Of a DNA stretch of 64,000 nt, positions 1,233 through 62,002 are shown piece after piece (the stretch's first letter is position 1; every line of letters begins with the position of its first letter). The stretch comes from Picocystis sp. L7 (lineage: Eukaryota > Chlorophyta > Picocystophyceae > Picocystales > Picocystaceae), in contig QXJR01000028.1 in NCBI GenBank assembly GCA_020975725.1, positions 62,001-126,000 on the forward strand. Reading direction: 5' to 3'. The position numbers were made by a program, and so were the translations under genes. Below the pieces are notes generated by a model. That model saw nothing but the letters and a program-made list of their open reading frames with translations, was not told the origin of the DNA and searched no databases.

Positions 1233-1718
1233 TGTTGAATTGACTAATGAGTCCCTTCAATTAGTTCTGGTTCTCTCCACAGTCGTTGTGAAATTAGTTG
1301 TGAACTGATCTGTGTCAATGAGGCGTAACCCTAGTTGAGCGTTTCTTCTTTCGTCAGGCGGTGTGGTGCCTTCAGCGGCACGTCGCAGGACGGAGGTGAG
1401 AGTGGCTTGCGGTTGGAGGGCGTTGTGGAGAACTCAGTTGGAGAATGGAAAAAATCTGGTTTACAGGTAATGCATGTGCGCTATTTATAGCGCTCCGAGT
1501 TTGTTCGAGCGAGGTGTTGTTCGTAGTTGCACGACACCTACTGACTTGCTTGTTTTGCTGTCGAAGGCACCTGTCGAGCACCTTTGCGTTCGTCCAGTCC
1601 AATGTCGGATTCCTCGGCATCTTCGTCGGGGGAACTCCTTGTCTTGGACTTCGTCGAAGATTGGGTTTGGTCACTGAGTGTGGGGCTGTTTCCTTCTGAA
1701 AGGATAGTTCTTTCAACA
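1233..1718 (-). repeat. 3' LTR of the copia element
   Basis: 486-bp direct repeat, matching 5641-6126 throughout as far as I can read. On the minus strand this is the downstream (3') LTR. Its ends carry the perfect 7-bp inverted repeat TGTTGAA/TTCAACA. Confidence 0.96.
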
Positions 1719-4700
1719 CTCCCACTCAGCTCCACTTCAGGTGAGTACATCCCAAGTTTTGATATGCAGGTCTTGAATTTTTCTTTTGGGAGTCTTTTCG
1801 TGAGGTAGTCTGCCCACATTTTTTCCGTTGGACAGTACCTGAAGTCGACTTCTTCACGTATTGCACGTTCACGCAGAAAATGGTGTTGCACGTCAATATG
1901 TTTTGCACGGCTGACTGATTGTGGATTCTTCAACAAGCGCAGAGCTGATTGGTTGTCCACCTTTACAACTATCTCAACCTTCTCTGGGTTGAGTAGTTGG
2001 TCGATAAAGTTCTTCATCCATAGGGCTTCTTTGACCGCAGCAGTGGCAGCTTGATATTCGGCTTCAGTTGTTGACAGGGAGATGGTTGGTTGAAGTTTAC
2101 TTTGCCAGGCCACTAGTCCTCCCATTATCAGTATGGCGTATCCGGTTCTCGACCTGCGTGTGTCACTCTCTCCTGCATAGTCAGCATCACTGTATACGGT
2201 TATCTGAATGCAGTCAGGTAAGTTCTGTGAGGTGCCTCGGTACGTTAGTTGTAAGTTTTTGGTTCCGTTCAGATACTTTAGCGTGTTTCTCATTGCTTTC
2301 CAATGTTCCTTTGTAGGATGGTTGTTGAATCTGGCTAACACGGATGCTGCATAGCAGATGTCTGGTCTTGTTGTACCAGCGAGGTATTGGAGCTGTCCGC
2401 TAATTTGCTGATACTGACTGTGCATCACTTTTTCTTCATCATGTTTGGCAGTCAGTGGCACAGAGAGTGGTAAATCTTGGATCTTGCTGTCTTCAATCCC
2501 ATGTTGTGTCACATAGTCCGTCACTTTTGCAGTCTGGTCCATGCTCAATGTTTGGTCAGGGATTTTTCTGGTGAGTGTGATTCCAAGAAATTGGTTTGCT
2601 TCTCCCACATCAGTTGCCTTGTACTTGGATTTGATTAGAGTTTTCATCTGTTGGACTGTATCAGATTTGTCACTGGCGATCAGTATATCGTCCACATAGA
2701 AGCACAGGAAGCAGGTTGTATCTGGTGCAGAGCATTTCAGTACGCTCTGGTCAACCTGATTGCATGAGAAGTTCATACTTCTCAAGGTGTTGGTCAGTTC
2801 GATGTTCCAGGCTCTGGGAGCTTGCTTGAGTCCGTAGAGGCTGCGATCGAGTTTCAGCACTTGGTCTGAGTTTTTGTCTGCTGACAGTCCTTTGGGTATT
2901 CGCAGGTACACTTCTTCCTCTAGGCTTGCATTGAGAAATGCAGTCTCGATGTCCATTTGATGTAGGTAAAGTTGGAGTTGATTTACCGTTGCGAGGAAGA
3001 TTCTGAGCGCTGTTTTGCTGACCACTGAGGCATATATGTCCTCATAGTCTTGTCCAGGTTTCTGATGACATCCAAGTGCGACCAGTCTGGCTTTGTATTT
3101 GACTATGTTGTTGTTGGCATCCCTTTTTATCTTGAAGATCCATTTGCTTCCAATGGGTCTTTTGTCCTTTGGCAGGTCAGTCTTGGTCCAGGTTCTCATG
3201 TGATTGAGGGAGGTGAGTTCGGATTGGATAGCTTCCTCCCACATGGCTTTGTCAGCTCTTTTCATGGCCTGTTCATAGCCATCGAATTTGTCTGGTAAGT
3301 TTTCAGCTCTGTAGGCTTTGTATTGCCTTTGTCTGTTTGGTCGGAGGTTGTATGGCTGACTCCCATGTTCATCTGCAGGTTGTGTTTCCGTTGGATCTGC
3401 TGTGTTTTCTTGTGTGGTGCCAATCTCGGTTGTACCCGTGTCATTGGTGTCACTCACTGATAAGGTATCAGTTGTGTTTTGATGCAGTTCATCTTGTGCA
3501 TCATTGGTAGTAGCAGCCTCCCACTGAACAGGGACATTCAGGTGGTTGGTGGCAGTTCTCAATTGTGTCACTTCATATGGTGTGGGAGAATATTCTCCCT
3601 TCTGGGTTTCATCAAATTTGACATTTCTGCTTATGATGAGTGAGTTGTTCACAAGCACGCGGTAGGTGCTTGTGTTCTCATAGCCCAGGAATATGCCCTT
3701 TTCACTTCGGGCATCAAACTTTTTGGTGAGTTGTTTTGAGTTCTTGAGAACCCAGGCTGCGCATCCGAAAACTCGCAGGTGCTTTACTGACTGCTTCCTG
3801 TTGCTGAGTTTTTCATATGGGGATTTGTGATCCTTTGGGTCACTGGGTGGAATTAGGTTTCTGGTGTGGGTGTAGTTCTTGATAGCTTCACCCCAGTACT
3901 TTGATGGTAGGTTTGAGCTGTTCAGCATGGTGCTGGCGTGTTCCCTCAGATCTCGGTGATACCTCTCAGCATCATTTTGTTGTGGAGTGTACCCTGCAGT
4001 TAATTCATGCTGAATTCCCTTTGCAGAAAGAAACTCCTTGAGGTCATTTCCCAGAAACTCTTGACCACGGTCCGTTCTCACTGATTTGACCCTTTTGTTT
4101 GACCCAGCGAGTTTTTCCAGGTGGTTGATGGCTTCCCTGGCATATTGGGAAGCCTGTCCCTTTGAGGACATCAGGTAAGTGAGACCAAGTTTGGTTGAGT
4201 GATCCAGTACTGACAAGTAATGTGTGTACCCTGCAGGTGTTGGTGGGCTGATTTCACCAACCACATCCATGTACAGCAAATCCAGTGGTTCCAACTGGTA
4301 ATTCTTTGGCTTGAAAGCAGTAGCTGTCTGCTTGTTCTGGATGCAGTCTTCACATTGTTTATCAGTTTTATGTGGGAGGTCAAGTTTCTTTATGCGACTT
4401 GGATGCACATGTCCAAGTCTTTGATGCCAGGTTTTTGCTGTCACACGGAGGCAGTAATGGCTGCCTGTCATGGTGGTGATCTGCAAGGTATGGTTCCCCT
4501 TCTTGATTGTGCACCTGTTGTTTTGGAAACTTACTGACGCGTTCTGTTCTGTCATGCTTGATACTGACAATAGGTTTGCGGTGAGTCCAGGTACATACAG
4601 TACATTGGTAAGTGTGAGTTTGGTATGGATTTTGTCATCCAGCACTAACTCCACTGTTCCTCTGCCTTCAGCTTTCAGGTGTGTTCCATCTGCAATTTCG

Positions 4701-5668
4701 ATGGTTGCATGATGCTGATCGAGTGACATGTCCTTGAACATTTCCTTGTGGCCTGCCATGTGCCACGATGCCCCAGAATCAACGATCCAGGTGTGCTGGT
4801 CATTGGTGGTAAGTTCTGCGGTCACTGCCATAAGGCTAATGACATTATCCTCGACCTCTGCTGACTTGTTTTTGTTGGAAGATTTTTTCTTTGATCCAGA
4901 GATGGTGATCCCATGGTCTGCTTTGAATTTCCTGCAGTCAGCGAGCACATGTCCTTTGTTGTGACAGTACTGACACCGTACTTTTTCTTTCTTCGCAGGT
5001 TTGTTCACAGAGTCAGTCTTGGCTATGAAGCTGGTACCATGGTAGAGTCTGGCTTCTTCATGGGTTAGTGATTTTCTCACTTGGGCAATGGTCAGTTTCT
5101 CATGGTAGTGCTCCAGTACAGTCACTAGATTGTTGTACTCTGTAGGCAGTCCATTTATGGCTATGGTGGCAACTTCCTGCTCAGGGAGGTTTATGCCAAT
5201 TTGCCGAAGTTCCTCGATGATCAGTACCAGATAGTTGATGTACTGGTCTGCTGTTTGATCAGATTGCTTCTTGAGCTGACTGAGTTTGCTCCTGAGATCC
5301 TTTTCGCGCAGAAATCCCTTTTCATTGTACAGGTTCTGCAGTACTTTCCAGATTTCACACGGAGTCTTGCATTGGTTCACATGCGACATGTACTCCATTG
5401 TAAGGCTATTTTTTATCCTTATCTTAGCTTTGTTAAGTTTTCTCTGAAACTCTTTGTCATCTTCCACATCTGATTTTTCAGGTTCTTCTCGTGTCATTTC
5501 CCACAGGTCATGGAGGATCAAATGATTCTCCATTCGGATGAACCATTCCTTCCAGTTTGTTCCATCCAGTTTAGGTACTGCACATACCTCAGCTGGATCA
5601 TTCATTGAGATGTTTTCCAAGCAATCCAAGGCTCTTAACCTGTTGAATTGACTAATGAGTCCCTTCAA
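1538..5668 (-). CDS. Ty1/copia gag-pol polyprotein
   Basis: A frame of about 1,376 codons encoding the copia polyprotein. Parts in order: UBN2-type gag region (about residues 30-200), CCHC knuckle CQYCHNKGHVLADC, protease with WIVDSGAS, GAG-pre-integrase and integrase core (about 420-620), reverse transcriptase with FYVDDILIAS (about 850-1100) and RNase H (about 1190-1320). Gag and pol share one frame, as is common in Ty1/copia elements. The open frame runs into both LTRs, so the true start is probably a little inside the first in-frame Met. It looks whole. Confidence 0.93.
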   Translation of the reverse strand: MKGLISQFNRLRALDCLENISMNDPAEVCAVPKLDGTNWKEWFIRMENHLILHDLWEMTREEPEKSDVEDDKEFQRKLNKAKIRIKNSLTMEYMSHVNQCKTPCEIWKVLQNLYNEKGFLREKDLRSKLSQLKKQSDQTADQYINYLVLIIEELRQIGINLPEQEVATIAINGLPTEYNNLVTVLEHYHEKLTIAQVRKSLTHEEARLYHGTSFIAKTDSVNKPAKKEKVRCQYCHNKGHVLADCRKFKADHGITISGSKKKSSNKNKSAEVEDNVISLMAVTAELTTNDQHTWIVDSGASWHMAGHKEMFKDMSLDQHHATIEIADGTHLKAEGRGTVELVLDDKIHTKLTLTNVLYVPGLTANLLSVSSMTEQNASVSFQNNRCTIKKGNHTLQITTMTGSHYCLRVTAKTWHQRLGHVHPSRIKKLDLPHKTDKQCEDCIQNKQTATAFKPKNYQLEPLDLLYMDVVGEISPPTPAGYTHYLSVLDHSTKLGLTYLMSSKGQASQYAREAINHLEKLAGSNKRVKSVRTDRGQEFLGNDLKEFLSAKGIQHELTAGYTPQQNDAERYHRDLREHASTMLNSSNLPSKYWGEAIKNYTHTRNLIPPSDPKDHKSPYEKLSNRKQSVKHLRVFGCAAWVLKNSKQLTKKFDARSEKGIFLGYENTSTYRVLVNNSLIISRNVKFDETQKGEYSPTPYEVTQLRTATNHLNVPVQWEAATTNDAQDELHQNTTDTLSVSDTNDTGTTEIGTTQENTADPTETQPADEHGSQPYNLRPNRQRQYKAYRAENLPDKFDGYEQAMKRADKAMWEEAIQSELTSLNHMRTWTKTDLPKDKRPIGSKWIFKIKRDANNNIVKYKARLVALGCHQKPGQDYEDIYASVVSKTALRIFLATVNQLQLYLHQMDIETAFLNASLEEEVYLRIPKGLSADKNSDQVLKLDRSLYGLKQAPRAWNIELTNTLRSMNFSCNQVDQSVLKCSAPDTTCFLCFYVDDILIASDKSDTVQQMKTLIKSKYKATDVGEANQFLGITLTRKIPDQTLSMDQTAKVTDYVTQHGIEDSKIQDLPLSVPLTAKHDEEKVMHSQYQQISGQLQYLAGTTRPDICYAASVLARFNNHPTKEHWKAMRNTLKYLNGTKNLQLTYRGTSQNLPDCIQITVYSDADYAGESDTRRSRTGYAILIMGGLVAWQSKLQPTISLSTTEAEYQAATAAVKEALWMKNFIDQLLNPEKVEIVVKVDNQSALRLLKNPQSVSRAKHIDVQHHFLRERAIREEVDFRYCPTEKMWADYLTKRLPKEKFKTCISKLGMYSPEVELSGSVERTILSEGNSPTLSDQTQSSTKSKTRSSPDEDAEESDIGLDERKGARQVPSTAKQASQ

Positions 5669-6238: not shown

Positions 6239-7063
6239 ATGGATCGCACAGAAGATGGAGAAAAGGTAAGAGAACGGAATGGAAGTGTTCAGGAGGAAGG
6301 GATCGGTCAACACGTAGGATCAGATTGCTGATGCGAACGTACGACACGATGTCACAACCACGCGCGGACGTGACAGGGAGAGCTCTCGTATCACTACTGG
6401 AAACGAGGTGGTAGCACCCAAGGATTGGAAGCCAAACATCCAGCACAACCCAAGGTGAGTCAACGAACTGGCGTTGGAAACCGTCGATCGCCATGGACAG
6501 TACACCCGCGTTCACGTCGATGTCACAACCTAAAAGGCAAAGAACGGGACTGACGAAACCACCGGCCATGGACAACGGAATAGAAACTGTCCCAGGAAGA
6601 AGCCAACACCCTGCACAAGTCAAGCAGTGGATCTGGTTCGCTGTGGAATGCCGCGGGAACGTTTGAAGAGGTCTGCGTCACCAAATGGGCCAAAGAAAGG
6701 TTGGACCAACTCCTCACAAAGATCGAGTCCAAGGATCCGCACGTGATTGTCACGAGGATCAAAGATTGCCAAGGAGATGCCAATCTGTGGATCGTGCGTG
6801 GAAAGAAAAAATGTGGATTCGATTTCGAAATTACACTCGAGTGGACGGCATGCGTGGAAGGAGAAGATATTTGTGGAACCATCAAGATCTTAGAAGCATC
6901 TCCGGACAATTTAGACGATCTCGAGATAGAAGTCAAAGCTGAGGAAGGCAAAGACAACCAACGCAAGCATCTGCATCCAGAGGCGGTGAGAAGAGCACGC
7001 ACCCTTGCATCAAAGCTGGAAGAAGCCCTAAGCGTATTCTATGTTGAGCTCCAGAATAAGTGA
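6239..7063 (+). CDS. Aha1 N-terminal-domain co-chaperone, three exons
   Basis: Exons 6239-6265, 6377-6454 and 6620-7063 give 182 residues. The introns are 111 bp (AAAAG|GTAAGA to GTGACAG) and 165 bp (CCAAG|GTGAGT to GCACAAG); both splice in phase 0. The product has an N-terminal YHYWKR motif, then WNAAGTFEE, TKWAKERL and the beta-rich Aha1-N fold up to VFYVELQNK. Aha1-N proteins stimulate the Hsp90 ATPase; plants have small proteins of this form, a YxYW-type motif followed by an Aha1-N domain without the C-terminal domain. The short N-terminus and phase agreement support the exon model, but the intron 2 acceptor is weak. The start codon lies 112 bp from a copia LTR. It is probably cytosolic, though I see no strong localisation signal. 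Confidence 0.8.
6266..6376 (+). other. Intron 1 of Aha1-N gene
   Basis: 111 bp from GTAAGA to GACAG in phase 0. It joins the nine-residue first exon to the exon carrying YHYWKR. An in-frame stop just upstream of that exon requires a splice or a start here. Confidence 0.7.
6455..6619 (+). other. Intron 2 of Aha1-N gene
   Basis: 165 bp with a consensus GTGAGT donor after AAG and the acceptor CACAAG, phase 0. A CTGAC branch-like motif lies near 6550. In-frame stops inside it exclude read-through. Confidence 0.65.
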
Positions 7064-8105: not shown

Positions 8106-9110
8106 CTACAAAAACGACCTGTACGGACACTCGCTTGCGGCATGCCCCTCCTTGCCACAGGTCCAGCATTCCATCGTTTGCAATCGAGGACAATTCCTTG
8201 CGATATGCCCTGTCTGCGAGCAATGGTAGCAGATGATATTGGATTCCCGTCGCCAGTCTGGCCTTTGGTTTCTTGCTGGTCTGGGACAGTTGTCTACAGT
8301 GTGCCCGGTCTGGCCGCAATTCAGGCACGATCTTTTGGGGAGATGTCCTAGCATGTCTTCGCAGCATAGATGCCCCTTGGCATGGCACACCAGGCAGGTG
8401 ATCTGCACGAGGTCTTGCGGCAGGTACTCCACGTCACACGGATCGGTGCACTTTGCCCTCCCGCATCTCAGGCAGATCTGTAGCTGCTGAAGTTCTCTAC
8501 TGTCCACGGGGCAGTCTTTGGCCTGGTGTCCGGGTTGATGGCATCGAAAGCAGAGGAAATTGGGACACTCTGCTTTTTGGTGTCCGTATTTCCCACACAA
8601 GAAGCACGGTTTTTTCTTCTCTTGCTCGGTGCAGTGTCTGGCCAGGTGTCCCGATCCACCGCATCGGAAGCATCGCAGTGCGGAGTCTTCCGGTGGATCG
8701 AAGTACCTGGGTGTCCTCAACAGTTTCCTCATTTCTTGGTTGGCTCCTTCGTCTTCTTCCCCTTCGCTGTCGGTTTGGTTTTCCTCGGTTTCCGTCTCTG
8801 TTATCGGTTGGTTTCGTTTCCTTTTCTTGTTCGCATCGTTCGTGTGCGTGCATGGTGCGACGTCCTTGATTTCTCCTTCTTCTTCCTCTTCGTCTTCTGA
8901 GCTGGACATGTCCTTTCCTTCCACGTACGCTTGGGCTTGGCTTCGCGTGGTGAAGCTCCGGAACGTGCTTCCCGACACCCCTTCCACTTGTCTTCGACAT
9001 GCTTTCCATCCCAGGTACACCCCGGGTTTCTTCCCCATTCGCACCCCGTAATACACCTTCATGTCGCCTGGTTGGACTTCCTCGTCGTCTTCGTCGTCTT
9101 GGACGGCCAT
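8106..9110 (-). CDS. Zinc-knuckle protein with RNase H1-type hybrid-binding domain (Air/ZCCHC7-like)
   Basis: 334 residues from the ATG at 9110. After an acidic start (QDDEDDEE), residues about 17-65 (KVYYGVRMGKKPGVYLGW, then FRSFTTRSQAQAYVEG) match the RNase H1 N-terminal / caulimovirus viroplasmin fold, which binds RNA:DNA hybrids or dsRNA. An acidic, Lys/Arg-rich linker follows, then about eight CCHC knuckles to the C-terminus: six canonical CX2CX4HX4C (for example CFRCGGSGHLARHC and CWTCGKEGHAASEC) and two degenerate ones in the middle. The knuckle array resembles Air1/Air2 and ZCCHC7, RNA-binding subunits of the TRAMP complex that feeds the nuclear exosome. The hybrid-binding domain is not part of those proteins as I know them. 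RRP6 lies divergently upstream beyond the transposon array, which fits a shared RNA-surveillance role. A nuclear location is inferred. Confidence 0.85.
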   Translation of the reverse strand: MAVQDDEDDEEVQPGDMKVYYGVRMGKKPGVYLGWKACRRQVEGVSGSTFRSFTTRSQAQAYVEGKDMSSSEDEEEEEGEIKDVAPCTHTNDANKKRKRNQPITETETEENQTDSEGEEDEGANQEMRKLLRTPRYFDPPEDSALRCFRCGGSGHLARHCTEQEKKKPCFLCGKYGHQKAECPNFLCFRCHQPGHQAKDCPVDSRELQQLQICLRCGRAKCTDPCDVEYLPQDLVQITCLVCHAKGHLCCEDMLGHLPKRSCLNCGQTGHTVDNCPRPARNQRPDWRRESNIICYHCSQTGHIARNCPRLQTMECWTCGKEGHAASECPYRSFL

Positions 9111-9217: not shown

Positions 9218-9240
9218 CCACCCCTATGCCACTTTTTGGG
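9218..9240 (+). repeat. Partial transposon end (left edge of array)
   Basis: 23 bases matching the right terminal repeat of the full copies (12028-12050). The bases further in (GTTTTAC) are replaced by host sequence ending CCCTC. This is either a truncated neighbour copy or the true outer end of a composite element. Confidence 0.75.
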
Positions 9241-9980
9241 CGTGTGAGTCCGAGAGGGTCACGTGCCGCCTCGTGGTCCATTCCGCACGTGCTTGGCCTC
9301 CCTCAGCATGATTTTCGATGCTCTTTCCGGTGGTGTGGGTCTCGCGTGCAGGATTCACGCCCCTGACATCGAACTCGTGCGGGTTCACTCTCGCGACTTT
9401 TGAAACCCAGGCCAATTTGGGCTGTTTGGGACCACAGATGGGAATGCGTCGGAGGACGCCCATCACGCCGATTGAGTGCGCTTCTCTTCTCTCGTCCGTG
9501 AAACCGCTTCCGCTCTTTCTTTGAGGACTTGTTTCGCCCCCTTCCCGGGCGTGGTTGGGGAGATGTGATCCAAATCTGCCCTTTGCGCCGGTCAGGCGGA
9601 CCTTGTTCGAGGTGCATGCCTATTTCGGTCTCTAAAATCGCGCACAGGCCGTTTCAGAGCATGCCAAGGACACCATTCAAAAGAACGCAACAAGAGCTTT
9701 CGAACGAGAGTACTTACAAGTCAATCTAACACGTCATTGCGAAGATACAGAGGTTTGAAGTCGAACTCGTCGACCGCTAGTAGATGGGACCCCAACGGAC
9801 CCACGCGCCTGCCCACACGGGAAGGCTCCGAGGCGTGCAGGGAAGATCGTTTCGGGACATGTGTCATCGATCGAAAAGATGCACCGTAAAACGTACAACA
9901 ACTTGGATCGAAGACTCTGAGCCTGGATCGGCCGTCCCCGGCCAAGGCGGTGGGAAACGCAGAAGTACCTCCACAGCCCA
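9241..9980. repeat. Array spacer S, copy 1
   Basis: 740 bp repeated identically at 12051-12790 and 14861-15600. No convincing coding region. Its minus strand over about 9241-9627 is clearly similar to 37205-37590 upstream of the UPF0126 gene, so it looks like captured or dispersed host sequence. It carries CACGTG motifs near its left edge. Confidence 0.85.
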
Positions 9981-12050
9981 CCAAAAAAAGTGGCACAGGG
10001 GTGGGTAAGAGGGTACAACAAAGGCCTTCCTAGCTGGATTCCCGTTCGAATGCTCCTGATATTTTGTACACATCGATAATGAGCTCCTAGTAGTAGTATG
10101 ACGGAATTTCGTTTGCAAAGAAGTCGTACATGTGCCTGTAGCCCCTTGGGTGTCGACCCTGAAAATGGACCCCGAAACCAGTAAATTGGCCACATAACCT
10201 GAATCGACACATACCCACGTAGAACGCAACCTACATCACTTTTGATGCTGTAATTTTGTAAGCATATTCTTATTCATTCTTTTACACCCTCTGCAAAAAA
10301 TCAGGGCGTAAAACGGCCAGATCAGCGCTCGAGACCATCAGATTTGTCTGCTGGTGGGGCTGTCCTACATATTCCATGAGTCCGGCAGGACCAAACATTG
10401 GTCTCCACCGACCCATTTTGGCTTGAAATCGTCTCAAACTTTGTATCATTGCTGTAATAGATGTTTGTACAAACTGGACAAAGTTTCACGGCCATGCATG
10501 ATGTCAATGGGGAATGGCGGAAAGACTCGGTGCTGTGTTATAATATTAGTAAAAAATACCCACATTTTGGCTGGATCTAAACATCCCCACTTCTCGTTCC
10601 CTCTAGTACTTTGTTCGTCCACCCTTGGATTGTATGACCTCCTGAAGTCGACGTGCCATACTTTCCAAGAGGGCCTTGCCCATACCGGCCTGTGAGAGCT
10701 CGAACCAAGCCGCTTTGGCTGCCTCGACGAGCCCCTCAAGGGTGGTAGGCTTCATGGTGGCCAGCTTCCCATCCAACAAAGCCCATGCATTCTCTATCGG
10801 ACTGAGATCGGGACTAAGAGGGGGCCAGTCGAGGACCACTCTGACGTTCTCACGCAAACTCATTTGGCCTAGAACCTCCAATGTGTCCTTGCTTCGATGA
10901 GCTCCGTCACCGTCTTGTTGGAACGTCCACTTCCTCTTTTTGAAAATCCGTTTCCCCTCATGGAAAAGCCAAGGGAGCACGTCTTTTCTATATTCCTCGC
11001 TTCCAACACCTTTGGCTCGCCTCTTGGTGCCATCCATGTACCGGCTCTTCCTTCCTGTGGTGCCCGTGACAAGTAGAAGCCGGGTGAACCCATGCAACGT
11101 GATCCCACCATACACTTTGATTCGCGGTGGGTCCTTCGTGTATTCCACGGTGGGGGAAACCCCACGAGGTACCATGGTGGTGGAAGCTCCTTTATGCTTC
11201 GCCACTCCAAGATAGATTTGGTGGGCGTCCGTGAACATCCACCTCGAAAAGTCATCGCCCAGGTGCTCGAGTGCAAAAGCCAACCTCTTTTCCTTGTGGG
11301 AGAACGTCAACCTTTGCACTAGCTTTTGCCTACGGGCTCGGATGCCCACGTCCTTGGTGATTCGATGGAGGGTTCTCAAGGATATCTTCTTGCCAAATTG
11401 GGCGTGCCAAGCGGTTTGGATATCCGCGCAAGAGGTGGGCTGCCCTTTCACGGCCGCCTCACGGACGAATTTGTCCAACCATGCCTCGTACTCCGTGGCG
11501 TAGCCCACGCTATGCCTCTCTCTCTTGGGCTTTGAGATTTTGGGCACCGTCGCCACCCATGCTCGTATTGTGGTGGGTGACCGTTTCATGACCTCGGCTG
11601 TGGCTGTCACATTTTGATGCAACATCTCGAACACCACTTGGGTGGCTTTTCTGGCCGCCTCCCGCTTCATGGCAAGTGTGGGTGTTTCCTTGCCTCGCGC
11701 AACCATCGCCGCAATCCGTGATACCTCACTCGTACCACAGAGAGTTTCGTCGTTCCTCTTTCGATTGGTGTGCTGGACGTGGTGATCGCCCCCTCTCCTG
11801 TCCTTCTGTACCCTCCTAAAAACACCCCTCTTTCACAGGCAGAGGCACCCTGGATAGGGGATTCGAGGCTAACCCTGTCCTTCTACGAGGAACTGCCCTT
11901 CGGCCTTTCCTTCACGTGTTCCTCATGCACCGGGCCTGCTTCCATCGGAATATCAAGATCTGATTCCCCGTCGTTCGTACGTGGCGATCGATGACGTGCG
12001 CCGGTTGAATACCCCTCCCAGTTTTACCCACCCCTATGCCACTTTTTGGG
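9981..12050 (-). mobile_element. Tc1/mariner-like DNA transposon, copy 1
   Basis: About 2,070 bp with terminal inverted repeats of about 30 bp; the shared core is AAAAAGTGGCAYAGGGG followed by TGGGTAARA. One transposase gene lies inside on the minus strand. TA dinucleotides lie inside both terminal repeats rather than cleanly outside, so the exact transposition boundary is uncertain. Confidence 0.8.
10603..11706 (-). CDS. Tc1/mariner/IS630-type transposase, copy 1
   Basis: 367 residues. The N-terminal 130 residues form helix-turn-helix-like DNA-binding modules (AEVMKRSPTTIRAWV; KKISLRTLHRITKDVGI). A DDE/RNase H-fold catalytic region follows with WMFTDAHQ, FQQDGDGAHRS and WPPLSPDLSPIENAW. By hand count 39 residues separate the second Asp from the final Glu (DD39E), longer than the usual 34 of Tc1 and like the spacing of plant mariners, which end in Asp. 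All three catalytic acids are present and the frame is intact, so it looks functional. It would cut and paste DNA bounded by the element's inverted repeats. Confidence 0.92.
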   Translation of the reverse strand: MVARGKETPTLAMKREAARKATQVVFEMLHQNVTATAEVMKRSPTTIRAWVATVPKISKPKRERHSVGYATEYEAWLDKFVREAAVKGQPTSCADIQTAWHAQFGKKISLRTLHRITKDVGIRARRQKLVQRLTFSHKEKRLAFALEHLGDDFSRWMFTDAHQIYLGVAKHKGASTTMVPRGVSPTVEYTKDPPRIKVYGGITLHGFTRLLLVTGTTGRKSRYMDGTKRRAKGVGSEEYRKDVLPWLFHEGKRIFKKRKWTFQQDGDGAHRSKDTLEVLGQMSLRENVRVVLDWPPLSPDLSPIENAWALLDGKLATMKPTTLEGLVEAAKAAWFELSQAGMGKALLESMARRLQEVIQSKGGRTKY

Positions 12051-12790
12051 CGTGTGAGTCCGAGAGGGTCACGTGCCGCCTCGTGGTCCATTCCGCACGT
12101 GCTTGGCCTCCCTCAGCATGATTTTCGATGCTCTTTCCGGTGGTGTGGGTCTCGCGTGCAGGATTCACGCCCCTGACATCGAACTCGTGCGGGTTCACTC
12201 TCGCGACTTTTGAAACCCAGGCCAATTTGGGCTGTTTGGGACCACAGATGGGAATGCGTCGGAGGACGCCCATCACGCCGATTGAGTGCGCTTCTCTTCT
12301 CTCGTCCGTGAAACCGCTTCCGCTCTTTCTTTGAGGACTTGTTTCGCCCCCTTCCCGGGCGTGGTTGGGGAGATGTGATCCAAATCTGCCCTTTGCGCCG
12401 GTCAGGCGGACCTTGTTCGAGGTGCATGCCTATTTCGGTCTCTAAAATCGCGCACAGGCCGTTTCAGAGCATGCCAAGGACACCATTCAAAAGAACGCAA
12501 CAAGAGCTTTCGAACGAGAGTACTTACAAGTCAATCTAACACGTCATTGCGAAGATACAGAGGTTTGAAGTCGAACTCGTCGACCGCTAGTAGATGGGAC
12601 CCCAACGGACCCACGCGCCTGCCCACACGGGAAGGCTCCGAGGCGTGCAGGGAAGATCGTTTCGGGACATGTGTCATCGATCGAAAAGATGCACCGTAAA
12701 ACGTACAACAACTTGGATCGAAGACTCTGAGCCTGGATCGGCCGTCCCCGGCCAAGGCGGTGGGAAACGCAGAAGTACCTCCACAGCCCA
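12051..12790. repeat. Array spacer S, copy 2
   Basis: Identical to 9241-9980. It separates the right end of transposon copy 1 from the left end of copy 2; the ends face each other across it. Confidence 0.85.
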
Positions 12791-14860
12791 CCAAAAAAAG
12801 TGGCACAGGGGTGGGTAAGAGGGTACAACAAAGGCCTTCCTAGCTGGATTCCCGTTCGAATGCTCCTGATATTTTGTACACATCGATAATGAGCTCCTAG
12901 TAGTAGTATGACGGAATTTCGTTTGCAAAGAAGTCGTACATGTGCCTGTAGCCCCTTGGGTGTCGACCCTGAAAATGGACCCCGAAACCAGTAAATTGGC
13001 CACATAACCTGAATCGACACATACCCACGTAGAACGCAACCTACATCACTTTTGATGCTGTAATTTTGTAAGCATATTCTTATTCATTCTTTTACACCCT
13101 CTGCAAAAAATCAGGGCGTAAAACGGCCAGATCAGCGCTCGAGACCATCAGATTTGTCTGCTGGTGGGGCTGTCCTACATATTCCATGAGTCCGGCAGGA
13201 CCAAACATTGGTCTCCACCGACCCATTTTGGCTTGAAATCGTCTCAAACTTTGTATCATTGCTGTAATAGATGTTTGTACAAACTGGACAAAGTTTCACG
13301 GCCATGCATGATGTCAATGGGGAATGGCGGAAAGACTCGGTGCTGTGTTATAATATTAGTAAAAAATACCCACATTTTGGCTGGATCTAAACATCCCCAC
13401 TTCTCGTTCCCTCTAGTACTTTGTTCGTCCACCCTTGGATTGTATGACCTCCTGAAGTCGACGTGCCATACTTTCCAAGAGGGCCTTGCCCATACCGGCC
13501 TGTGAGAGCTCGAACCAAGCCGCTTTGGCTGCCTCGACGAGCCCCTCAAGGGTGGTAGGCTTCATGGTGGCCAGCTTCCCATCCAACAAAGCCCATGCAT
13601 TCTCTATCGGACTGAGATCGGGACTAAGAGGGGGCCAGTCGAGGACCACTCTGACGTTCTCACGCAAACTCATTTGGCCTAGAACCTCCAATGTGTCCTT
13701 GCTTCGATGAGCTCCGTCACCGTCTTGTTGGAACGTCCACTTCCTCTTTTTGAAAATCCGTTTCCCCTCATGGAAAAGCCAAGGGAGCACGTCTTTTCTA
13801 TATTCCTCGCTTCCAACACCTTTGGCTCGCCTCTTGGTGCCATCCATGTACCGGCTCTTCCTTCCTGTGGTGCCCGTGACAAGTAGAAGCCGGGTGAACC
13901 CATGCAACGTGATCCCACCATACACTTTGATTCGCGGTGGGTCCTTCGTGTATTCCACGGTGGGGGAAACCCCACGAGGTACCATGGTGGTGGAAGCTCC
14001 TTTATGCTTCGCCACTCCAAGATAGATTTGGTGGGCGTCCGTGAACATCCACCTCGAAAAGTCATCGCCCAGGTGCTCGAGTGCAAAAGCCAACCTCTTT
14101 TCCTTGTGGGAGAACGTCAACCTTTGCACTAGCTTTTGCCTACGGGCTCGGATGCCCACGTCCTTGGTGATTCGATGGAGGGTTCTCAAGGATATCTTCT
14201 TGCCAAATTGGGCGTGCCAAGCGGTTTGGATATCCGCGCAAGAGGTGGGCTGCCCTTTCACGGCCGCCTCACGGACGAATTTGTCCAACCATGCCTCGTA
14301 CTCCGTGGCGTAGCCCACGCTATGCCTCTCTCTCTTGGGCTTTGAGATTTTGGGCACCGTCGCCACCCATGCTCGTATTGTGGTGGGTGACCGTTTCATG
14401 ACCTCGGCTGTGGCTGTCACATTTTGATGCAACATCTCGAACACCACTTGGGTGGCTTTTCTGGCCGCCTCCCGCTTCATGGCAAGTGTGGGTGTTTCCT
14501 TGCCTCGCGCAACCATCGCCGCAATCCGTGATACCTCACTCGTACCACAGAGAGTTTCGTCGTTCCTCTTTCGATTGGTGTGCTGGACGTGGTGATCGCC
14601 CCCTCTCCTGTCCTTCTGTACCCTCCTAAAAACACCCCTCTTTCACAGGCAGAGGCACCCTGGATAGGGGATTCGAGGCTAACCCTGTCCTTCTACGAGG
14701 AACTGCCCTTCGGCCTTTCCTTCACGTGTTCCTCATGCACCGGGCCTGCTTCCATCGGAATATCAAGATCTGATTCCCCGTCGTTCGTACGTGGCGATCG
14801 ATGACGTGCGCCGGTTGAATACCCCTCCCAGTTTTACCCACCCCTATGCCACTTTTTGGG
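12791..14860 (-). mobile_element. Tc1/mariner-like DNA transposon, copy 2
   Basis: Same as copy 1, shifted by exactly 2,810 bp, with no difference that I can see. Identity over the transposon and the spacer means the unit was duplicated as a whole, very recently, rather than by two independent insertions. Confidence 0.8.
13413..14516 (-). CDS. Tc1/mariner/IS630-type transposase, copy 2
   Basis: 367 residues, identical to the copy encoded at 10603-11706, with the same DNA-binding region and catalytic acids. Both copies are intact, so either could supply transposase in cis. Confidence 0.92.
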   Translation of the reverse strand: MVARGKETPTLAMKREAARKATQVVFEMLHQNVTATAEVMKRSPTTIRAWVATVPKISKPKRERHSVGYATEYEAWLDKFVREAAVKGQPTSCADIQTAWHAQFGKKISLRTLHRITKDVGIRARRQKLVQRLTFSHKEKRLAFALEHLGDDFSRWMFTDAHQIYLGVAKHKGASTTMVPRGVSPTVEYTKDPPRIKVYGGITLHGFTRLLLVTGTTGRKSRYMDGTKRRAKGVGSEEYRKDVLPWLFHEGKRIFKKRKWTFQQDGDGAHRSKDTLEVLGQMSLRENVRVVLDWPPLSPDLSPIENAWALLDGKLATMKPTTLEGLVEAAKAAWFELSQAGMGKALLESMARRLQEVIQSKGGRTKY

Positions 14861-15600
14861 CGTGTGAGTCCGAGAGGGTCACGTGCCGCCTCGTGGTCCA
14901 TTCCGCACGTGCTTGGCCTCCCTCAGCATGATTTTCGATGCTCTTTCCGGTGGTGTGGGTCTCGCGTGCAGGATTCACGCCCCTGACATCGAACTCGTGC
15001 GGGTTCACTCTCGCGACTTTTGAAACCCAGGCCAATTTGGGCTGTTTGGGACCACAGATGGGAATGCGTCGGAGGACGCCCATCACGCCGATTGAGTGCG
15101 CTTCTCTTCTCTCGTCCGTGAAACCGCTTCCGCTCTTTCTTTGAGGACTTGTTTCGCCCCCTTCCCGGGCGTGGTTGGGGAGATGTGATCCAAATCTGCC
15201 CTTTGCGCCGGTCAGGCGGACCTTGTTCGAGGTGCATGCCTATTTCGGTCTCTAAAATCGCGCACAGGCCGTTTCAGAGCATGCCAAGGACACCATTCAA
15301 AAGAACGCAACAAGAGCTTTCGAACGAGAGTACTTACAAGTCAATCTAACACGTCATTGCGAAGATACAGAGGTTTGAAGTCGAACTCGTCGACCGCTAG
15401 TAGATGGGACCCCAACGGACCCACGCGCCTGCCCACACGGGAAGGCTCCGAGGCGTGCAGGGAAGATCGTTTCGGGACATGTGTCATCGATCGAAAAGAT
15501 GCACCGTAAAACGTACAACAACTTGGATCGAAGACTCTGAGCCTGGATCGGCCGTCCCCGGCCAAGGCGGTGGGAAACGCAGAAGTACCTCCACAGCCCA
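14861..15600. repeat. Array spacer S, copy 3
   Basis: Identical to 9241-9980 and 12051-12790. It is followed by a partial transposon end and then host DNA upstream of RRP6. Confidence 0.85.
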
Positions 15601-15623
15601 CCAAAAAAAGTGGCACAGGGGTG
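15601..15623 (+). repeat. Partial transposon end (right edge of array)
   Basis: 23 bases matching the left terminal repeat of the full copies (9981-10003). The match stops at GGGGTG, after which host sequence CTCCCCC follows. It mirrors the left edge, which stops at the same point of the repeat. Confidence 0.75.
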
Positions 15624-15773: not shown

Positions 15774-18296
15774 ATGGACGCACTGCACCAGGCGTGTTCT
15801 GCAGCCGCCAAGGACGCCTCGGAACTGCCAGGACCCAAGGATCTCTTCTACTACGCCAACTTCGAAAGATACGGCCACGGGGTGAAACGAGCGAGACATG
15901 CCGTGGCCGAAATGCTTTGCCAAGCGTGTGGAAGAGATTCCCACCCAGGCATGGACGTGGCGGAAGCACACGCCTGCGTGGTCGAAGTGATGGACGAAGC
16001 CGTGGACAACGTGGACCGATGGTTGGGGGAAGCAGAAGAAAGAGCGGAGAGAAAGACGGAAAAGAAGGAAAGCGAAGGGATCGAGACGATGATGGAGAGC
16101 TGGAACCAACCGACGGCGGCGGCCAAGACGGTGACGTTCCACGTCAAATCCCTGCAAAAACCGCAGGAAGGGTTCCAAGACAAACCAGACAATTCCAATC
16201 GATCCTTCAACCACAGAACCAGGGCCGAACTCGTCGGAGAGGTCGAAACCGACCCACGATTGAAGACGCTCCGAAAGAGGCTAGAAAAGGATCATATCAG
16301 CGTACATCCCCTGCAGGAAGAGCTGGATGGATTGAAGTGCCCCGCGTGGATGAGGACGAAGCGCCGACCAGTGCCGCCTCAACCCATGGAAAGCACGCCT
16401 CTCGTGTATGTCGACACTTTGGAAGGGCTTCAGCAGATGGCACAGAAACTGCAAAGAGAACGAGCCATCGCAGTCGATCTGGAAAATCACAGCTACCGCT
16501 CCTTCCACGGATTTGTGTGCTTGATGCAAATTTCAACCCGTAAAGAGGACTTCGTAATCGATACACTAGCACTCAGAGAGCACATAGGGGAAACGTTGGG
16601 GAAGATTTTTGCAGATGAATCCGTGGTGAAAGTTTTACATGGGGCTAACCACGATATCAAGTGGTTGCAAAGGGACTTTGGGGTCTATATTCTGAACCTG
16701 TTTGACACAGGTATTGCTGCCAAGGCTTTACAGTTGGGTGGAAACAGCCTGGCAAGCTTGTTGGAGGTATACTGCAATGTCAAAACAGACAAACGGCACC
16801 AGCTATCTGATTGGCGGATTCGCCCTCTTGACGACCACATGATGCAGTATGCTAGACAAGATACCCACTACTTGCTGTACATATTCGACCAGTTGCGCCA
16901 GGAACTGCTGGCGCAGGGTGAGCTTCCGGAAGGGCTTGCTCCTGCCTCGAACAACTCCGTCCCGGATAAAGCCCAAGACTCCCTTGGATTTGTTTTCGAT
17001 CGCTCAAGGCAATTGTGCATGTCACTATACGAGAAAGATCTTTTCAGCGATGAATCTTATCTCCAAGAGTATCAAAAGATCAGCGCCAAGCTTAACGCCC
17101 ACCAGTTGTCTGTGCTGGCGGCGCTGTTTGCGTGGCGCGACAAAACTGCTCGCCTTCTTGACGAGTCGAAGGGGTATGTCATGTCCAGGAGTTTACTGAC
17201 GCGTCTCTCCCAGGGCATGCCGACAACAGCAGCTCAGGTCAGGAAGCTGATTCGGGGTGCATCTGTTCTAGTGGAGAAACATGCAGCAGACATAGCTGAA
17301 CTTATCCGAAACGCAAAGGAGAGGGCGAAGATTCAACCAGAAAATCCGAGAGGGCTACAGAGTAGCTTCATGGATGTTGGTGAGACCGAGAGAAGCCATC
17401 AGAAGGCAACCGCTAAGGAAGCTGCAATAGCGAAGCATGGTACATCAACTGTAGAGGGACAAACCTGTACGCAAGGGCTTGAGAAGCGGCCTGGTAGCAA
17501 ATTTGCCGATCCTCCCTCAAACGCTAGCGATATGGAAGGTGCTGCCAAAGGACCAATTCTTGGCAATTCCGCGCAAGCAGTTGGTCGTTCTCCTTCGCCG
17601 CTCGCGGGTGCCCTGTTTGGGAAGCGCCCCCAACGGCAAGCCCCTTCAGAGAAGGATGAAGAAATAAACAGCAAGCATGCGAAATTGATGGCGTCAATGA
17701 AGATGTCATTCAAATCTATCCAGCTGAAGGAGCGTACCGCTCCTCCCAGCCCTGTCAGCATGCAAGACAAGCTTACATCACCGTCAGAAGAAATCAGGCA
17801 GGTGGTGGTTCCAGAAACGCGGGAAGCGGAGAAAGACGCAATAGCAAAGGACCAGGAGTCACCGGAAGAAGGAACCAACCAGAAATCTACTCCAGAGCTA
17901 GGAAACGACTTGCCGGCTGCTGAGGAAGCGCCTGACTTCCTCCCTCTGCCCATCTCACAGCAGTTCAAGAGCAAGAGGAAGAAACAGGACGGCGGTCGTG
18001 GACGGAAGGAGAAAGCAGGCAAGCCTCACGGAGCTCACTCTTCGGCCTTGGCTGCAGCCCGGACCACCCCATCGTATGACTATGCTGCAGCGAAGGCGGC
18101 TGCTCTGCCGTCCCCGGCTCCTCAGGAACCGAAAGAAAGCTTGGGAAAGGGCTCTGGGCAACGAAAGAAGTATAAAGGATTTGACGGTTTTTCCATCAAG
18201 GATCCTGAAGGTCTTCGTCCAGGTCCTCGTACTGCCGTTCAGCCTTCCCGAGGCAATCGCAGTGCCACATTTGGTGGACGACGAGAGAAGAAATAA
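15774..18296 (+). CDS. RRP6: RRP6/EXOSC10 nuclear exosome 3'-5' exoribonuclease
   Basis: 840 residues from the first in-frame ATG. Order: PMC2NT-like N-terminal region (about 1-90), DEDD-Y exonuclease (about 211-376) and HRDC domain (about 430-505), then a long low-complexity basic tail. The catalytic residues are all visible: AIAVDLE, HGANHDIKWL and YARQDTHYLL. RRP6 trims rRNA, snoRNA and aberrant transcripts in the nucleus as part of the exosome, helped by TRAMP. The upstream divergent gene encodes a TRAMP-like zinc-knuckle protein, so the pair is functionally coherent. The stop codon overlaps an AATAAA hexamer (18292-18297). The tail has Ala/Pro/Lys-rich stretches and no further domain I recognise. 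Confidence 0.94.
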   Translation: MDALHQACSAAAKDASELPGPKDLFYYANFERYGHGVKRARHAVAEMLCQACGRDSHPGMDVAEAHACVVEVMDEAVDNVDRWLGEAEERAERKTEKKESEGIETMMESWNQPTAAAKTVTFHVKSLQKPQEGFQDKPDNSNRSFNHRTRAELVGEVETDPRLKTLRKRLEKDHISVHPLQEELDGLKCPAWMRTKRRPVPPQPMESTPLVYVDTLEGLQQMAQKLQRERAIAVDLENHSYRSFHGFVCLMQISTRKEDFVIDTLALREHIGETLGKIFADESVVKVLHGANHDIKWLQRDFGVYILNLFDTGIAAKALQLGGNSLASLLEVYCNVKTDKRHQLSDWRIRPLDDHMMQYARQDTHYLLYIFDQLRQELLAQGELPEGLAPASNNSVPDKAQDSLGFVFDRSRQLCMSLYEKDLFSDESYLQEYQKISAKLNAHQLSVLAALFAWRDKTARLLDESKGYVMSRSLLTRLSQGMPTTAAQVRKLIRGASVLVEKHAADIAELIRNAKERAKIQPENPRGLQSSFMDVGETERSHQKATAKEAAIAKHGTSTVEGQTCTQGLEKRPGSKFADPPSNASDMEGAAKGPILGNSAQAVGRSPSPLAGALFGKRPQRQAPSEKDEEINSKHAKLMASMKMSFKSIQLKERTAPPSPVSMQDKLTSPSEEIRQVVVPETREAEKDAIAKDQESPEEGTNQKSTPELGNDLPAAEEAPDFLPLPISQQFKSKRKKQDGGRGRKEKAGKPHGAHSSALAAARTTPSYDYAAAKAAALPSPAPQEPKESLGKGSGQRKKYKGFDGFSIKDPEGLRPGPRTAVQPSRGNRSATFGGRREKK

Positions 18297-61774: not shown

Positions 61775-62002
61775 TGCGCCCCCAGGCTTCCCCTCGGTCG
61801 AGGGATTTCGCCTCCCCTAGACCTCGACCATCCAACGTCTGAAAGAGGAAGCGAGAGAGGGGTGGTTCGATGCCCGTGCCAGTCGTGGGGGAGGGCTGCA
61901 GGCAGGGAAGGGAAAGCGATAGAAGGGAAAGAGAAGGGAAAGAGAAGGGGATAGAAGGGAAGGGGAGGGCCATTGTGAGCCCAAGGACGTGAGTTTGTGG
62001 CC

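Follow-up and report, generated by a model that had tools for sequence, protein, structure and literature searches.

An RNase H1-type hybrid-binding domain fused to an AIR-like zinc-knuckle array in the green alga Picocystis sp. L7

The RNA-binding subunit of the TRAMP complex (Air1 or Air2 in yeast, ZCCHC7 in human) is characterized by an array of CCHC zinc knuckles, of which yeast Air has five. Here, we analysed a 64,000-nucleotide stretch of DNA (the window) from the green alga Picocystis sp. L7 (GenBank assembly GCA_020975725.1, contig QXJR01000028.1, forward-strand positions 62,001 to 126,000) and describe one of its genes, HBD-AIR, in which such an array is preceded by a domain of the type that recognizes RNA:DNA hybrids in RNase H1 (hybrid-binding domain, HBD).

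Like Air1, Air2 and ZCCHC7, the product of this gene carries a CCHC knuckle array; with the AIR1/AIR2-like proteins of the green lineage it also shares the motif RYFD ahead of the array, and it is the one strong AIR-like match in its genome, where TRF4-like and MTR4 genes are found as well. It differs from Air/ZCCHC7 in its N-terminal HBD, in the number of its knuckle modules (eight) and in having EYLPQDL in place of the yeast motif IWRxY. The concept of a zinc-knuckle exosome adaptor is common to HBD-AIR and NEXT (ZCCHC8-RBM7-MTR4), but the similarity of HBD-AIR is to AIR-like proteins, and ZCCHC8 was a weak match to the family profile (7z4y, E 0.079). The transactivator/viroplasmin P6 of Caulimovirus has a domain of the same fold (Foldseek); we know of no AIR-like knuckle array in P6, and its partners differ from those proposed below for HBD-AIR. 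RNase H1 and HBD-AIR are alike in the sequence, fold and key Trp of the HBD, but HBD-AIR has no catalytic domain, and the separate RNase HI-like gene of the alga shows no HBD. An HBD-like (Caulimovirus) domain outside RNase H1 is also found in ANKLE2, which, unlike HBD-AIR, has a LEM and ankyrin architecture, is restricted to animals, and lacks the RNA-binding loop and one strand of the domain (PMC13179284; this and the other articles are cited from excerpts). HBD-AIR pairs an adaptor family already known with a domain that is also known but unexpected in this place. An earlier note on this DNA, made from the sequence alone, had called the architecture undescribed, and we likewise found no fusion of an HBD with CCHC or AIR-type zinc knuckles in the open-licence literature, part of which was judged by title and the start of the abstract.

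The gene and its parts are given below, with identities to P0002, a full-length relative from the database.

8106..9110, minus strand: HBD-AIR gene, 334 aa in a single open frame, with Pfam matches and the full-length relative P0002
8916..9059, minus strand: RNase H1-type HBD, residues 18-65 (Pfam match 20-62), by PF01693, phmmer, AlphaFold2 and Foldseek
8742..8915, minus strand: linker, residues 66-123, with acidic runs and a KKRKR basic cluster; 32/58 identical to P0002
8685..8741, minus strand: NQEMRKLLRTPRYFDPPED motif ahead of the first knuckle, residues 124-142; 19/19 identical to P0002
8127..8672, minus strand: zinc-knuckle array, residues 147-328 (PF00098), with six canonical CCHC knuckles, one variant and one degenerate

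Judged by four tests on sequence and model (Pfam, phmmer, the AlphaFold2 fold and Foldseek), the N-terminal module is a genuine HBD. PF01693 matched residues 20-62 with 57.8 bits, against a curated cut-off of 21 (E 1.3e-15), and phmmer aligned the protein without gaps to the HBD of human RNase H1 (3bsu; E 4.6e-9, 39.3 bits) and to yeast RNase H1 (1qhk; E 5.8e-8, 35.8 bits) in the PDB. Five single-sequence AlphaFold2 models reached a mean predicted local distance difference test (pLDDT) score of 58-82 (82.1 for the best, 58-76 for the others), and the best of them had all three strands predicted in the order strand-strand-helix-strand-helix, as described for the HBD in PMC7657459. Foldseek placed this model on 3bsu with a probability of 1.00 (TMt 0.80-0.85), and all six PDB matches at that probability were RNase H1 HBDs, while none of the 87 matches reached an E of 0.001 (2.6e-3 at best, for 3bsu). 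The earlier note's identification of the module was thus borne out by both profile search and predicted structure, as was its statement that the RNase H catalytic domain is absent: a Pfam scan of the open reading frame (ORF) gave no match to PF00075 or PF13456. In an NCBIfam scan a ribonuclease H model matched the HBD below its cut-off. Several caulimovirus viroplasmins appeared within the top 22 viral Foldseek matches. An insertion of caulimovirus sequence was considered and rejected; the fold matches viroplasmin, but no other viral family was listed for the ORF.

Both domains lie in one intronless frame of 334 codons, from an ATG at 9108-9110 to a TAG at 8106-8108 on the minus strand. Upstream of 9110 the frame stays open as far as an ATG at 9281; the 391-aa version that would begin there was rejected, as its first part lies inside a transposon insertion that begins at 9218. 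Position 9110 is the likely start codon, since P0002 has Met-Ala at the matching position and the alignment of P0002 with a second database entry, P0001, is weak and gapped upstream of it; a start further upstream is also possible. P0001 is 100% identical to HBD-AIR and P0002 is 74-75% identical over its full length, and both carry PF01693 (54.3 bits in P0002, above the cut-off). By these comparisons the fusion is real, as the earlier note had assumed in assigning both parts to one gene, and it is found in two distinct proteins (74% identical). P0002 probably comes from a Picocystis as well. An assembly chimera was rejected because P0002 keeps both parts.

Among the best 120 of 245 homologues, where a further HBD fusion could still be present among the rest, P0001 and P0002 were the only carriers of PF01693 in precomputed domain annotations. 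From these 120 we selected 35 to form, with the window protein, an alignment of 36 rows (A2), in which P0001 duplicates the window protein apart from its N-terminus; a PF01693 scan of the 36 members found three carriers, namely the window protein, P0001 and P0002. The non-fusion homologues, where named, were largely from land plants and green algae. Several have source names such as AIR1, AIR2 or ZCCHC7-like (identity 35-46%, covering 54-82% of the query), and some were named HEXBP-like or cold shock protein. A database search with the HBD region only (residues 1-112; 344 candidates) gave P0001 as its single hit and missed P0002, and was thus too insensitive for tracing the origin of the HBD.

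The array matched PF00098 with 93 bits (E 5.5e-27) in six stretches, and eight CxxC modules were recognized by pattern. Six of these are canonical CX2CX4HX4C knuckles (starting at residues 147, 169, 187, 262, 294 and 315), one is a variant (residues 239-250, CLVCHAKGHLCC) and one is degenerate and has no His (residues 213-225, CLRCGRAKCTDPC). The count of about eight CCHC knuckles in the earlier note is thus right if the variant and the degenerate module are included. The entire array and RYFD (8697-8708) are collinear with AIR-like proteins of land plants and green algae, a comparison made with green-lineage proteins so named and not with full-length yeast or human ones. RYFD occurs ahead of knuckle 1 in 36/36 rows of A2 and is included in the 34 columns that are invariant in this chosen set, which agrees with the earlier description of the array as Air/ZCCHC7-like. 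The linker between HBD and array was modelled at low confidence (pLDDT <50 at residues 68-96 and 98-119), and its KKRKR cluster, read by eye, is a possible nuclear localization signal. As the full-length model had a predicted template-modelling score (pTM) of only 0.26, no docking or knuckle geometry was taken from it.

The genome (20.5 Mb, 30 contigs) was searched in six frames with no intron models, so that split domains could be missed. PF01693 was found at one locus, HBD-AIR (three candidates scored). The HBD-AIR protein matched one locus strongly and two others weakly (E 3.8e-5 and 1.7e-4), and a plant AIR1 query likewise found the HBD-AIR locus (E 2.9e-46) and two weak matches elsewhere (E 5.7e-4 and 0.00155). 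HBD-AIR is the only HBD detected in the genome and its only strong AIR-like match. Of two DSHCT helicases, one (L006) is MTR4 by comparison with the PDB (E 8.3e-174), and among three PAP_assoc polymerases L008, with the Trf4 chain of 3nyb as its best PDB match (E 1.6e-59), is by this similarity a TRF4-like polymerase. One RNase HII was present. No PF00075 match was found in the six-frame search, but to conclude from this that the genome has no RNase H would be wrong, as PF13456 finds one RNase HI-like gene (L011 1316-2118; G000 contig C4 ~282099-282901). The first catalytic motif of this gene, FDGGSRGNPG (L011 1316-1345), lies in another frame just upstream of the rest, probably because of an intron, and the six-frame search detected no HBD at this gene.

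Beyond HBD-AIR on the side of its start codon lie a transposon array and a divergently transcribed gene for RRP6/EXOSC10, the nuclear exosome exonuclease.

15774..18296, plus strand: RRP6/EXOSC10 gene, 840 aa, divergent neighbour of HBD-AIR (PF01612, HRDC, EXOSC10 structure)
9218..15623, no strand assigned: tandem Tc1/mariner-type transposon array between HBD-AIR and RRP6 (repeats, transposase)

The RRP6 product matched PF01612 (E 3.5e-48), HRDC (E 9.6e-11) and an EXOSC10 structure in the PDB (E 7.1e-86). Among the best 120 of 1506 homologues, it was 71% identical to a Picocystis salinarum protein over the whole length and 70% identical to one further protein, and other named proteins were at 29-50%. 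This neighbour is a link to the exosome that the earlier note did not contain. The chance of finding an exosome-related gene at the RRP6 position is about 0.3%, a post hoc figure from one genome that rests on an estimated 7,000-8,000 genes (from gene spacing in the window) and an estimated ~25 exosome-related genes. The insertion of 6406 bp that now separates the two genes is built of a 786-bp unit, present in three identical copies spaced 2810 bp apart, and of two identical 2024-bp bodies between these copies, with zero mismatches between the first two 2810-bp units, and each body encodes a 367-aa Tc1/mariner-type transposase (PF01498 E 5.8e-11; DDE_3 below cut-off). P0001 runs from the sequence upstream of HBD-AIR into what matches the sequence beyond the insertion, apart from a few bases that differ at the junction. 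The insertion is therefore missing from one allele, in which the start codons of HBD-AIR and RRP6 would be ~254 bp apart. A scan for sigma-70 promoters and terminators, uninformative for a eukaryotic promoter, gave 0 promoter-like sites and 3 terminator-like sites versus 2.2 expected.

On the other side of HBD-AIR, a plus-strand ORF (6701-7063) matched Aha1_N (Hsp90 ATPase activator; E 5.3e-20) and seems to be the 3' portion of a gene that lies downstream of HBD-AIR, and an intact 1376-aa ORF on the minus strand (1538-5668) looks by eye like a Copia-type polyprotein. The guanine-plus-cytosine (GC) content was 50-58% in 24/32 two-kilobase steps of the window (range 46-64%), and that of a published Picocystis genome is 53.6% (PMC6346183).

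We propose, at about an even chance, that HBD-AIR is a TRAMP-type exosome adaptor with a hybrid-binding module. It would serve a TRAMP-like nuclear exosome cofactor as the AIR-type adaptor, with an HBD added to its N-terminus through a flexible charged linker. RNA binding and docking on the TRF4-like poly(A) polymerase would fall to the knuckle array, and the HBD would keep the complex at RNA:DNA hybrids (R-loops), where the displaced or nascent transcript would be tailed and then passed to MTR4 for unwinding and to the exosome and RRP6 for degradation. HBD-AIR and RRP6 might be co-expressed from a shared divergent promoter. In yeast, deletion of TRF4 causes R-loop-mediated instability that is suppressed by RNase H (PMC3676323), and other work cited there found more rearrangements, partly suppressed by RNase H, when AIR1 or RRP6 was lost.

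Several observations weigh against this proposal. In the human HBD, W43A and KK59/60AA compromise hybrid binding (PMC10639055). HBD-AIR has Trp35 at the W43 position (conserved in both fusion proteins) and the basic residue Arg51 at K59, both in favour of the proposal, but K60 is replaced by Ser52, a Ser in both fusion proteins, so that one contact position is retained, one is changed conservatively and the third is altered. In place of the human loop DRFPA, HBD-AIR has EGVSG, equal in length and different in residues. Hybrid binding is absent from the HBD-like domain of ANKLE2 (PMC13179284). Identity between HBD-AIR and P0002 is 4/17 in the N-terminus, 30/48 in the HBD, 32/58 in the linker, 19/19 in the RYFD stretch and 168/192 in the knuckles (residues 143-334), which puts the HBD slightly above the linker and far below the knuckles; this moderate conservation tempers any claim of strong constraint. 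Retroviral nucleocapsids exceeded yeast Air2 as PDB matches both to the HBD-AIR protein (E 7.6e-10 vs 1.5e-4) and to a 12-sequence family profile (1.7e-11 vs 1.5e-8). The best of these matches span one pair of knuckles; short knuckles alone fail to separate the nucleocapsid and Air families, and it is thus the collinear array and the flanking motif that carry the AIR assignment. The Trf4-binding motif of yeast, IWRxY, lies between Air knuckles 4 and 5 (PMC10767929) and was found in 0/36 rows of A2, HBD-AIR included, so that we file HBD-AIR as AIR-like and not as a proven Air subunit; its assembly into a TRAMP complex, like its binding of hybrids, is inferred. RRP6 was observed as the neighbour in a single genome.

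In the IWRxY place, HBD-AIR has EYLPQDL (8409-8429). A pattern of this kind, [DEN][YFH]xxxD[LIFVM], precedes knuckle 5 in 26/36 rows of A2, and its Asp is present in 36/36. In the green-lineage AIR-like proteins, which do not have IWRxY, this pattern together with RYFD is a candidate replacement for the TRF4 interface.

A possible but less probable alternative is an AIR-type adaptor whose HBD binds duplex or structured RNA (pre-rRNA, tRNA precursors) and not R-loops, and so merely widens its grip on RNA. EGVSG is closer to the yeast loop (DGYGG) than to the human one, and the yeast HBD prefers double-stranded RNA (dsRNA), but human and fly HBDs prefer hybrids (PMC7657459), and phmmer scored the human HBD slightly higher than that of yeast. 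A Drosophila HBD without its catalytic domain binds hybrids tightly, with no binding to dsRNA or double-stranded DNA (PMC7657459); with a hybrid-specific fly domain and a dsRNA-preferring yeast domain, either outcome is possible for HBD-AIR. It is rather unlikely that the fold has lost nucleic-acid binding and become a protein-docking module, as in ANKLE2, whose domain is important for the interaction with PP2A (PMC13179284). The moderate conservation of the HBD between the two fusions would suit such a change of role, but the ANKLE2 domain has lost a strand and the RNA-binding loop, and that of HBD-AIR aligns ungapped with RNase H1 HBDs, with three strands predicted and the key Trp kept.

We regard as improbable a general or cytoplasmic CCHC RNA-binding protein (CNBP/HEXBP-like), or a domesticated Gag nucleocapsid of a retroelement, with no role at the exosome. 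The nucleocapsid E-values, the nearby Copia-type ORF and the homologues with HEXBP-like or cold shock names speak for it, but the best nucleocapsid matches are limited to one knuckle pair, the whole array and RYFD align with land-plant and green-algal AIR-like proteins, no Gag, protease or reverse transcriptase family was found in the ORF at E up to 1, and the gene has one strong genome match and RRP6 as its neighbour. A Gag/Copia origin was rejected on these matches and families, and for want of repeated copies. That two genes were misjoined by the assembly or by a missing stop codon is very improbable; we found no point in favour of it, the database has P0001 and P0002 as separate entries in which a single frame encodes the two domains, and the linker has an open frame and is conserved in part.

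In the literature excerpts surveyed, we found nothing that ties hybrid recognition directly and physically to RNA decay. The HBD-AIR fusion, beside a divergent RRP6 gene, provides evolutionary evidence of a tie of this kind. It may also help to establish whether the green lineage has a TRAMP-like complex; according to a 2014 article, such a complex with a poly(A) polymerase 'remains to be identified in plants' (PMC4140647). More tentatively, and with doubt outweighing belief, we suggest that in Picocystis-like algae the HBD moved from RNase H1 to the only AIR-type adaptor, encoded back-to-back with RRP6, so that R-loops would be recognized and cleared by TRAMP and the exosome and not by an HBD-guided RNase H1. 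HBD-AIR would then be a protein found in nature that joins hybrid recognition physically to 3'-5' RNA decay. The fusion itself suggests that the alga may couple the recognition of R-loops physically to the decay of RNA.
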